The position numbers were made by a program, and so were the translations under genes. This document shows, one piece after another, positions 45,332 through 49,444 of a stretch of DNA of 64,000 bases. The notes under the pieces are model-generated. The model made no database searches and was not told the origin of the DNA. It saw nothing but the letters and a program-made list of their open reading frames with translations. Numbering within the stretch: position 1 is the first letter of the stretch; the number at the start of each line of letters is the position of its first letter. Source of the DNA: Alcaligenaceae bacterium (GTDB lineage Bacteria > Pseudomonadota > Gammaproteobacteria > Burkholderiales > Burkholderiaceae_B); the NCBI GenBank assembly GCA_013416435.1, contig JACCEN010000005.1, positions 62,001-126,000 of the forward strand, given 5' to 3'.

Positions 45332-45415
45332 GGGGTCAGACCCCATACGGGGTCTGACCCCTTGGCGTGTTCATGGCCGTGAGCTGGGGTCAGACCCCGT
45401 ATGGGGTCTGACCCC
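45332..45415. repeat. Palindromic repeat cluster G (two units)
   Basis: Perfect units with loops ATAC and GTAT at 45332-45361 and 45386-45415, centres 54 bp apart. The cluster starts ten bases after the SDR stop and ends exactly at the ychJ stop codon (45416-45418). Confidence 0.93.
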
Positions 45416-46624: not shown

Positions 46625-47947
46625 ATGTCGAACTCCTATTTTCCGCGCTGGCGCAAGGTTGACGGCGGCGCATCCGGCGTCGTGGTGCAGCCCGACGAGC
46701 GCATGTCCTGGCCGCAGAACGTCGCGATGGGCGCGCAGCACGTCGTGGCCATGTTCGGTTCCACCATCTTGGCACCCCTGCTCATGGGTTTCGACGCCAA
46801 CGTCGCCATATTGATGTCCGGCATTGGCACACTGATTTTCTTCCTCTTCGTCGGCGGGCGCGTCCCCAGTTATCTGGGATCCAGCTTCGCCTTCATCGGC
46901 GGCGTCATCGCGGTGACGGGTTACGCGGGCAGCGGCGCCAACGCGAATATCGGCGTTGCTTTGGGCGCCATCATCGCCTGCGGTCTCGTCTATACCCTCA
47001 TAGGATTGCTGGTGTGGTGGGTCAACGCCCGCTCCGGCGGGGCGGCGCAATGGATCAACGCCTGGATGCCGCCGGTGGTGACAGGCGCCATTGTAGCCGT
47101 CATCGGGTTGAATCTGGCGCCCATCGCCGCCAAAGGGGCCATGGGCGGATCCACTTTCGAGGCCTTGATGGCCCTGGTGACGGTGCTGTGCGTGGGCGGC
47201 ATTGCCGTCTATACGCGGGGCACGGTGCAAAGGCTGCTCATCCTGGTCGGCCTGCTGCTGGCTTGCGTCATCTATGCCGTCCTGACCAATGGCCTGGGCT
47301 TGGGGAAACCCATCGATTTCAGCGGCGTCCAGGCAGCGTCCTGGCTCGGCCTGCCTCGGTTTGCGGCGCCGGTCTTCGAGTTTCACGCCATGAGCGTCAT
47401 CGTCCCGGTGGCCATCATCCTGGTTGCCGAGAACCTCGGGCACATCAAGGCCGTCAGCGCCATGACCGGGCAGAACCTGGACGTCTACCTGGGCCGCGCA
47501 TTCGTGGGCGACGGCGTCGCCACCATGGTGTCCGGGGCGGTCGGCGGGACGGGCGTCACGACTTATGCGGAAAACATCGGCGTCATGACCGTGACCCGCA
47601 TCTATTCGACACTTGTGTTCGTGGTGGCCGCGCTGATTGCGATCCTATTGGGCTTTTCACCCAAGTTCGGGGCTTTGATACAGACCATACCGGGGCCGGT
47701 CCTGGGCGGCATGTCGGTCGTGGTTTTTGGTTTGATCGCGGTGGCGGGCGCCCGGATCTGGGTAGTGAATCAAGTCGACTTCAGCGACAACCGCAACCTC
47801 ATCGTGGCGGCGGTGACGCTCGTCTTGGGCGCCGGTAATTTTTCCTTGCAATTGGGCGCATTTCGCCTTGACGGCATCGGCACGGCCACTTTTGGCGCCA
47901 TACTCCTGTATGCGCTGCTGCGGCGCAGTTCGCCCGCCCCGGTATAG
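46625..47947 (+). CDS. NCS2-family nucleobase (uracil/pyrimidine) permease
   Basis: A 440-residue permease of the nucleobase:cation symporter-2 family with about 14 hydrophobic segments. The family signature is in VAENLGHIKAVSAMTGQNLD; other UraA/RutG-like segments are QNVAMGAQHVVAMFGSTILAPLLMGFD at the start and VGGTGVTTYAENIGVMTVTRIYS. Uracil or another pyrimidine is the likely substrate. A weak GGCGGA lies a few bases before the ATG. It ends before a repeat cluster and a strong terminator. Confidence 0.9.
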   Translation: MSNSYFPRWRKVDGGASGVVVQPDERMSWPQNVAMGAQHVVAMFGSTILAPLLMGFDANVAILMSGIGTLIFFLFVGGRVPSYLGSSFAFIGGVIAVTGYAGSGANANIGVALGAIIACGLVYTLIGLLVWWVNARSGGAAQWINAWMPPVVTGAIVAVIGLNLAPIAAKGAMGGSTFEALMALVTVLCVGGIAVYTRGTVQRLLILVGLLLACVIYAVLTNGLGLGKPIDFSGVQAASWLGLPRFAAPVFEFHAMSVIVPVAIILVAENLGHIKAVSAMTGQNLDVYLGRAFVGDGVATMVSGAVGGTGVTTYAENIGVMTVTRIYSTLVFVVAALIAILLGFSPKFGALIQTIPGPVLGGMSVVVFGLIAVAGARIWVVNQVDFSDNRNLIVAAVTLVLGAGNFSLQLGAFRLDGIGTATFGAILLYALLRRSSPAPV

Positions 47948-47952
47948 CCCAA

Positions 47953-48051
47953 GGGGTCAGACCCCGTACGGGGTCTGACCCCCGGCGCCGTTCGCCTGCC
48001 TCGGTATAGCCGAACGCTGGGGTCTGATGACCCCATTCGGGGTCTGACCCC
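47953..48051. repeat. Palindromic repeat cluster H (two units)
   Basis: A perfect unit with loop GTAC at 47953-47982, five bases after the permease stop, and a second at 48019-48051 whose left arm carries an extra TGA. Centres are about 67 bp apart. Confidence 0.9.
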
Positions 48052-48103
48052 CAGGCCGCATGGGCTTGCAATTTCCCTCAAGTTTGCCGACAATACGTAC
48101 GTG

Positions 48104-48137
48104 CCCCCGGTTGTTCGTCATGCCGGGGGTTTGTTTT
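48104..48137 (+). terminator. Intrinsic terminator after the nucleobase permease
   Basis: CCCCCGG (48104-48110) pairs with CCGGGGG (48123-48129) around a 12-nt loop and is followed by TTTGTTTT. Confidence 0.85.
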
Positions 48138-48199
48138 GAACTAGGCCAAATTGTTGTTCACAGCTATAACAAACCAACGATCCCTTTAGTTCCACGCAC

Positions 48200-48218
48200 G
48201 GGCGGCATGCACCCGCCC
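48200..48218 (+). other. GC-rich hairpin in the greA leader
   Basis: GGGCGG (48200-48205) and CCGCCC (48213-48218) with a 7-nt loop, followed by an A/T-rich stretch. Position suggests a leader structure. Confidence 0.5.
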
Positions 48219-48233
48219 AAATAATTATCGATA

Positions 48234-48260
48234 GGCGCTCCATGTGGGGAGCGTCTTTTT
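48234..48260 (+). terminator. Terminator-like hairpin immediately before greA
   Basis: GGCGCTCC (48234-48241) pairs with GGAGCGTC (48248-48255; one G-U) around ATGTGG and is followed by five Ts, then AC and four Ts. It lies 20 bp before the greA start codon and ahead of its Shine-Dalgarno sequence, so it would act as an attenuator or create a short leader RNA. Confidence 0.7.
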
Positions 48261-48280
48261 ACTTTTGAGTCAGGAATATT

Positions 48281-48757
48281 ATGTCTGCGATCCCGTTGAC
48301 AGTTCGCGGCGCTGAGCGCTTGCAAGTAGAACTCCACCGTTTGAAGACCGTTGAGCGGCCGGAAGTCATCAATGCCATCGCCGAGGCGCGTGCGCAAGGC
48401 GACTTGTCGGAAAACGCCGAATACGATGCCGCACGCGAGCGACAGGCCTTCGTGGAAGGCCGCATCCAGGAACTGGAAAGCACGCTCTCGAACGCCCAGA
48501 TCATCGACCCTGCCGCACTGGACGTCGACGGCAAGGCCGTATTCGGCGCCACCGTCGAAATCGAGGACCTCGAATCCGGCGAGCGTGTCAAGTACCAGAT
48601 CGTGGGCGATGTCGAGGCCGATATCCGCGCCAACATGATTTCGGTATCCAGCCCGGTGGCACGCGCCTTGATCGGCAAGACGGAAGGCGACGTGGTGGAA
48701 GTCAAGGCGCCCGCCGGCATACGCGAGTACGAAGTACTGAACGTCAGCTATATTTAA
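48281..48757 (+). CDS. greA: Transcription elongation factor GreA
   Basis: A 158-residue GreA that stimulates RNA polymerase to cleave backtracked transcripts. The N-terminal coiled coil ends in the acidic tip [19 protein letters not shown], which reaches the polymerase active centre; the C-terminal FKBP-like domain is [28 protein letters not shown] to the end. AGGAA precedes the ATG. The stop codon is inside a small palindrome (48753-48771). A terminator-like hairpin lies in its leader. Confidence 0.96.
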
Positions 48758-48822
48758 CGCCCGGCGTTAAAGTTGTGCCCAGCGTCGTGCCTTTGGGCGT
48801 ACCGACCCACGCCGGGGCCGGC

Positions 48823-48856
48823 GAAAAAAAAGCCCAGCGCGGTTGGCGTTGGGCTT
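48823..48856 (-). terminator. Terminator of yhbY (bidirectional with greA)
   Basis: On the minus strand the stem AAAGCCCAACGCC/GCGCTGGGC is followed by eight Ts, a canonical terminator 13 bp after the yhbY stop. On the plus strand the same hairpin is followed by TTTATAAT, a weaker stop signal for greA. Confidence 0.88.
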
Positions 48857-48868
48857 TATAATGATAGC

Positions 48869-49444
48869 TTAACGTTTCCCTGAACGAAGCCCGCGCCTTG
48901 CGCCGGCGCGCAGCGAAAGCGCGCTGCCGCTGCGACGCGGTATGCCGTGGGCGGGGCGTGCCGGGGCATTGGATGCCGCCAGGGCGCGTCGAGCCCGGGG
49001 CGCCGCGGTTTCGGGTGCTTCGGATTTCTGCGCAGCGCGCTTGGTTTTTTCGTCGCGCCGGGTTCGGGTCACGCCTTCGGCCGCCAGTTTCTTCGGCGTA
49101 TGCGGTTCGGTCGGCTTTCGTACCGCGCGCGTCGCGTATTCGGCTTCTGCCTTGGCTTTCTGGGCTTTGGGGTCCGGCCGATAAATGATCAGCGTCTTGC
49201 CCAGGTGATGCACGAGCGCGCAGGACAGGCTGTCGCATATGGTTTCCAGCATGGCGTTGCGGGCTTCGCGCTCTTCGCCGGCGACCCTGACCTTGATCAA
49301 TTGATGCGCAGTCAGGTTGTTATCGATTTCTTTCAGTACGGAATCAGTCAAGCCCCGGTCTCCGATCAGGACGACTGGGCGCAAAGGATGGGCGGCAGCG
49401 CGAAGGGCGCTGCGCTCTTGGGATGTGATGTCTAGTTTTGCCAT
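48869..49444 (-). CDS. yhbY: YhbY-type CRM-domain RNA-binding protein with a long basic tail
   Basis: A 191-residue protein. The N-terminal ~100 residues are a CRM/YhbY domain (MAKLDITSQERSALRAAAHPLRPVVLIGDRGLTDSVLKEIDNNLTAHQLIKVRVAGEEREAR) that associates with pre-50S ribosomal particles in E. coli. The remaining ~90 residues are Ala/Arg/Lys-rich and low complexity, not found in the 97-residue E. coli protein, and probably contact rRNA. It is divergent from rlmE, with only 17 bp between start codons, so their promoters must overlap into the genes. Confidence 0.92.
   Translation of the reverse strand: MAKLDITSQERSALRAAAHPLRPVVLIGDRGLTDSVLKEIDNNLTAHQLIKVRVAGEEREARNAMLETICDSLSCALVHHLGKTLIIYRPDPKAQKAKAEAEYATRAVRKPTEPHTPKKLAAEGVTRTRRDEKTKRAAQKSEAPETAAPRARRALAASNAPARPAHGIPRRSGSALSLRAGARRGLRSGKR

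Follow-up and report, generated by a model that had tools for sequence, protein, structure and literature searches.

Two terminator-like hairpins in series follow a conserved promoter in the greA leader of a betaproteobacterial family

In the window (the whole stretch of 64,000 nucleotides that was analysed), greA, whose product assists RNA polymerase, lies downstream of a co-directional gene for a xanthine/uracil-type permease, whose stop codon is at 47947. The GreA protein matches Pfam PF03449 and PF01272 above cut-off, and inspection of its residues shows that D41 and E44 are both present. The leader has the order conserved promoter, hairpin T1, insert, hairpin T2, ribosome-binding site, greA; within 48051-48280, T1 and T2 are the sole hairpins with a T tract called between the permease stop and greA. 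The features are listed below.

48066..48071, + strand: conserved greA promoter, -35 element TTGCAA (its TTGC unchanged across 72 aligned sequences)
48089..48094, + strand: -10 element GACAAT (ACAAT invariant in 72 aligned sequences)
48103..48130, + strand: predicted terminator hairpin T1, core CCCCCGG / CCGGGGG (-18.2 kcal/mol; 88 of 90 family loci)
48130..48137, + strand: T tract of T1, TTTGTTTT, from the sequence
48138..48192, + strand: P2/P3 domain of the insert (17 related inserts)
48200..48218, + strand: P4 hairpin GGGCGG / CCGCCC (17 inserts, 79% paired, both-side changes in 3 of 6 pairs)
48233..48256, + strand: predicted terminator hairpin T2 (-15.2 to -15.7 kcal/mol; conservation; model R2)
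48256..48266, + strand: T tract of T2, TTTTTACTTTT, from the sequence and alignment A1
48272..48276, + strand: Shine-Dalgarno sequence AGGAA, kept in alignment A1
48281..48757, + strand: greA coding sequence (158 aa)

The initial annotation described an 8-bp stem with a T5 tract 20 bp ahead of greA, and coordinates, energy, shuffles and conservation all agree with it. Residues 48234-48241 (GGCGCTCC) pair with 48248-48255 (GGAGCGTC) to form the 8-bp stem of T2, T5 occupies 48256-48260, a further run of T extends to 48266, and the greA ATG at 48281 follows T5 by 20 nt. Extended by one A-T pair, the stem has 9 bp and an energy of -15.7 kcal/mol (z -4.65), with none of 200 shuffles as good. A plain consensus terminator scan does not exceed the chance level, reporting 2 terminator-like sites against a shuffle mean of 2.0. 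Our own stricter, energy-based finder, which calls a hairpin together with its T tract, was tested on dinucleotide shuffles of 48161-48280; a site at -15 kcal/mol or below arises in 1 of 1000 shuffles, and any site at -8 or below in 71 of 1000. Hairpins with T tracts are found in the last 100 nt before 8 of the 46 ORFs in the window, that of greA being the most stable.

For comparison we used the window's own family, which we take to be the Alcaligenaceae and which includes Achromobacter; 262 of its 268 genomes have a strong greA match. Ninety leaders, one per species genome, were compared from 28 of the 43 genera; they comprise the 30 best greA matches and 60 hand-picked for spread among the matches listed for the 262 genomes (L005, L006 and L014 lie outside the 90, L005 being seemingly the same contig as L134). 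The promoter pattern is present in 89 of these loci and T1 is called in 88, the exceptions being L109 and L119; in all 88 the promoter lies upstream of both hairpins. A T2 distinct from T1 is called by the energy-based finder in 82 loci and 25 of the 28 genera, the call in L109 being repeat-derived and not homologous. The finder calls no T2 in the other eight (L135, L154, L156, L161, L163, L165, L166 and L172), of which L156 and L163 have a weak match to the T2 model, R2, at greA. The initial annotation had proposed a comparison with related genera, and its outcome disposes of T2 as a speciality of one bacterium.

The spacing of these elements is informative. The distance from the -10 element to the end of T1 is 28-49 nt (median 34, sd 3.6) and that from the end of T2 to the ATG is 19-27 nt (sd 1.6), whereas the -35 element lies anywhere from 91 to 343 nt before the ATG. 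These nearly constant end distances, combined with a variable total length, point to a leader built of two modules, the first anchored to the promoter and the second to greA. At the compact extreme, only 17-23 nt separate the end of T1 from the greA ATG in four loci of genus g43 (L154, L165, L166 and L172), and in L152 the promoter, T1, T2 and the ATG all fall inside 122 nt. Distances to the upstream gene, derived from open frames, were discarded as too noisy in GC-rich loci.

The window promoter, TTGCAA-N17-GACAAT at 48066-48094, follows a family pattern of TTGC..-N17-(G/C)ACAAT in which the spacer is 17 nt throughout the loci with a promoter, except for 16 nt in L168. A simple sigma-70 scan does not report it in the window; according to a passage of PMC11722255, a sigma-A promoter of B. 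pertussis uses a TTGCAT -35 element with a 17-nt spacer. Transcription would start near 48100-48102, and T1, as a whole 48103-48138, thus follows the predicted start by only a few nt and lies about 100 nt upstream of T2.

Both hairpins are maintained by paired changes. In alignment A1, which holds 66 distinct T2 rows (T2-less loci, duplicates and the longer hairpin calls of L089, L134, L141 and L142 being left out), 98% of pair cells hold standard pairs, and 4 of the 9 pairs have changed on both sides. Alignment A2 holds 72 distinct T1 rows out of 87, with 15 near copies removed by hand; here 96% of pair cells are standard and both-side changes occur in 5 of the 7 pairs, a count equalled by one slid control (slide -3). 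None of 500 shuffled controls reaches the covariation score of T2, and likewise none of 500 reaches that of T1, excesses of a kind that kinship alone can give. Model R1, built on the promoter and T1, has one strong match in its own genome, at greA (48063-48149, 82.7 bits), and four further weak ones (E 0.059 to 0.343); R2 has a single match there, also at greA (48226-48283, 66.6 bits). R1 matches 230 and R2 159 of the 268 family genomes. At the level of sequence, these comparisons establish T2 and the coupling of the promoter to T1, and show that these elements are conserved and that the stems stay paired. The decisive evidence for T2 as a candidate terminator is its conservation in 82 of the 90 family loci together with the compensatory changes; it is very probably a terminator inside the greA leader, as had been suggested.

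In 80 loci the insert between T1 and T2 measures 7 to 231 nt, with a median of 114.5. Eighteen inserts were chosen by eye for a common motif, and 17 form alignment A3, L133 having been dropped after the first alignment. The outer helix of the P2/P3 domain, 48138-48145 with 48185-48192, begins at the T1 tract (85% paired, 2 both-side pairs); the inner helix joins 48149-48156 to 48175-48182 (91% paired, 5 both-side pairs). The P2/P3 loop, ACAGCTATAA, with its A-rich flank, is near-invariant in the 17 related inserts. Overall, 85.8% of cells are paired and both-side changes occur in 10 of 22 pairs; 16 of 500 shuffles and one slid control attain as many both-side pairs, but none attains the score or the share of paired cells. 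Other genera carry other inserts, the conservation being confined to this 17-locus group, and the insert of L152 is only 7 nt long. A second promoter within the insert, suggested by TATAAC/TATAAA at the conserved loop, was considered and rejected, as by eye there is no -35 element at a proper distance; since the flanking arms also co-vary, we read these letters as an RNA loop.

A second hairpin at 48200-48218, which the initial annotation thought might compete with T2 or form an RNA body, is present as P4 (-11.9 kcal/mol, a value matched by 13 of 200 shuffles) and is part of the structured insert. It does not compete with T2 in the folds: both form, and the T2 helix has a mean pair probability of 0.98 in the full leader. 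Across 80 folded leaders the T1 and T2 helices form with mean probabilities of 0.94 and 0.93; exceptions, with probability below 0.5, are T2 in L134, L140 and L155 and T1 in L157. No antiterminator fold excluding the terminator, as expected of a two-state attenuator, appears in the equilibrium folds of these 80 full leaders. Rfam gives eight matches up to E 10 in 47900-48900, all below the gathering score and outside T1-T2, and no match at the gathering score in ten relatives.

The explanation that we favour, with a probability of about 0.68, is that the greA leader is a serial-terminator attenuator, transcribed from the conserved promoter through T1 and T2. The compact loci are telling here: as T1 abuts greA in the four g43 loci, and the elements of L152 stand back to back, there is no space for an ordinary promoter between terminator and gene, and greA would most simply be transcribed from the conserved promoter through the hairpins. 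Transcription would begin near 48100, RNA polymerase reaching T1 within ~35 nt and T2 ~160 nt downstream, right before the ribosome-binding site. Termination is likely at both hairpins: some polymerases would stop at T1, giving a predicted RNA of ~33-39 nt, some at T2, giving a predicted RNA of ~158-163 nt, and the remainder would yield greA mRNA with a 5' leader of ~180 nt. By analogy with what is reported of GraL in E. coli, the strength of termination may depend on how much active GreA is present. On this basis greA is probably held low by early termination, an arrangement loosely comparable to that of E. coli, although its parts are different and doubled. A more elaborate version, doubtful at present, would make T1 and T2 a family-wide dual checkpoint acting in series as a GreA homeostat, with a tiny RNA from T1 and a longer structured RNA from T2, both of which may act in trans, and with the clade-specific insert adding a signal.

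The hairpins could instead be mere terminators of the upstream permease gene, with an unrecognised greA promoter overlapping T2. Terminators between neighbouring genes are ordinary, the permease gene is co-directional with greA in the window, and no other T-tract hairpin is called in 48051-48280 after its stop. Such an arrangement is nevertheless unlikely, because T1 keeps a fixed distance from a promoter that lies upstream of it, T2 keeps its 19-27 nt from the ATG, the family promoter precedes both hairpins wherever T1 is called, and a promoter after T2 would place the start within or beside the Shine-Dalgarno sequence. T1 may additionally serve the upstream gene. It is also conceivable, if improbable, that the promoter and T1 are an independent gene for a very small trans-acting RNA placed before greA, T2 alone being the leader terminator of greA. 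The coupling of promoter and T1 at a distance from greA that varies from 91 to 343 nt would suit this, as would a predicted RNA of GraL size; however, where T1 abuts greA in g43 the same promoter must serve greA unless the gene is read from upstream, the promoter-T1 unit is single-copy in its own genome, at greA, and we recognised no conserved single-stranded seed.

A further idea is that the structured insert acts as an aptamer, sensing a ligand or a protein and thereby switching T2. Three helices kept by compensatory changes and the loop ACAGCTATAA in 17 related inserts speak for it, yet T2 persists outside this group, where the insert is unconserved, and even in L152 with its 7 nt. As T2 also forms whatever the insert does in the folded leaders, and no Rfam family matches, we regard an aptamer as very improbable.

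GraL, in the greA leader of Escherichia coli, was reportedly described by Potrykus et al. in 2010. It is reported to consist of several short RNAs, 37-59 nt long, and to act in trans (nudE). Its feedback is puzzling, and to our knowledge is known in detail from E. coli only. According to PMC6829880, the E. coli leader has the promoters P1 (sigma70) and P2 (sigmaE), a 19-nt stretch before the hairpin, a terminator ~100 nt from the AUG (itself at +150) and GraL RNAs of up to 59 nt; about one third of transcripts get past the terminator. The same paper states that catalytically active GreA represses its own gene by way of leader sequences, and that a D41 mutant of GreA abolishes autoregulation (PMC6829880).

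The family leader resembles this system in having a promoter followed within tens of nt by a putative intrinsic terminator, in a predicted short RNA whose length is likewise some tens of nt, and in a GreA with the catalytic residues D41 and E44. It differs in having one conserved promoter pattern rather than P1 and P2, two serial putative terminators and a structured insert, the second of these terminators lying beside the ribosome-binding site and not ~100 nt from the AUG. The parallel with GraL drawn in the initial annotation thus holds in so far as a predicted intrinsic terminator follows a greA promoter within the leader, but the positional counterpart of the GraL terminator would be T1 (48103-48138), as T2 adjoins the ribosome-binding site. 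Its remark that the sequence is unrelated to GraL is borne out: at the greA locus of E. coli K-12 (L173), R2 finds no match and R1 only two weak ones outside the leader (E 0.015 and 0.55). The data favour neither common descent with GraL nor a separate origin.

Attenuation of greA is already known as a kind. Naville and Gautheret (2010; PMC2965389) predicted greA- and rnk-leader attenuators across bacteria, and in the portions of that paper available the leaders drawn, from Pseudomonas, enterobacteria, bacilli and Yersinia, have clear antiterminators, in contrast to those here, where none is seen. In those portions of its main text Bordetella and Ralstonia are absent and Burkholderia occurs only in a passage on insertion sequences. 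The literature searched yielded no paper on a betaproteobacterial greA leader; the word 'greA' is absent from the available part of PMC8386462, and passages of PMC4035088 and PMC12235514 contain only words like 'greater'. What is new, as far as that literature goes, is the pairing of predicted terminators in a promoter-tied and a gene-tied half. A two-terminator leader in at least 25 genera would make early termination before greA a lasting feature in another bacterial class, and the natural variants, with T1 only, T1 and T2 back to back, or long inserts, allow the role of each part to be tested.

Predicted greA leader hairpins of several different sequences are widespread in betaproteobacteria. 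A T-tract hairpin lies in the last 100 nt before greA in 38 of 76 named loci, drawn from other betaproteobacteria and a few neighbouring groups; this is a lower bound, as the 40-nt limit of the finder misses long stems (e.g. Burkholderia L007-L009, by eye). Among 278 other ORFs in loci of this sort, used as controls, 22 have one (Fisher p 3e-15), with control starts set at the first ATG or GTG and possibly misplaced; L014 and L019, the latter with only 35 nt upstream, are excluded from the 76. Where greA is close behind carB, the hairpin tends by eye to be missing. A -10-like hexamer lies 5-30 nt before the hairpin in 13 of the 76 loci. The hexamer CATAAT stands 10-16 nt before a T-tract hairpin near greA in L022, L023, L033, L039, L041, L042, L046, L057, L058, L082 and L084; these loci, mostly of Comamonadaceae type, represent another putative promoter-terminator-greA arrangement of different sequence. 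The hairpins of these 38 loci differ in sequence from T1 and T2, for example CCGCCG..CGGCGG with TTTGCTTTT in Comamonadaceae-type loci, and each leader has only one in the stretch read.

Outside the family, and counted apart from two Achromobacter loci, R1 has a weak match abutting greA in L051 (E 8e-5), and its hairpin part matches near greA in L047 (E 0.065); for R2 there is a match near greA in L073 (E 0.0096). An extension of the promoter-T1 motif to the rest of the order was rejected: 33 of 300 sampled genomes matched R1, 7 of them from the family, and in the 20 of the 26 others in which greA was located, none of the R1 matches is at greA. Among viral contigs there were just five distant relatives of greA, which are uninformative.

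Two kinds of repeat occur in the window. An inverted repeat that includes runs of A and of T, GCCCAGCGC..GCGTTGGGC, lies between the convergent greA and yhbY at 48827-48858 and looks like a two-way terminator. The 13-mer GGGGTCTGACCCC is a dispersed palindromic repeat between genes, with 27 copies in the window against 0.01 expected, mostly as inverted pairs; sites include 45332-45415, 47953-47982 and 48039-48051, and three copies lie just 5' of the greA promoter.
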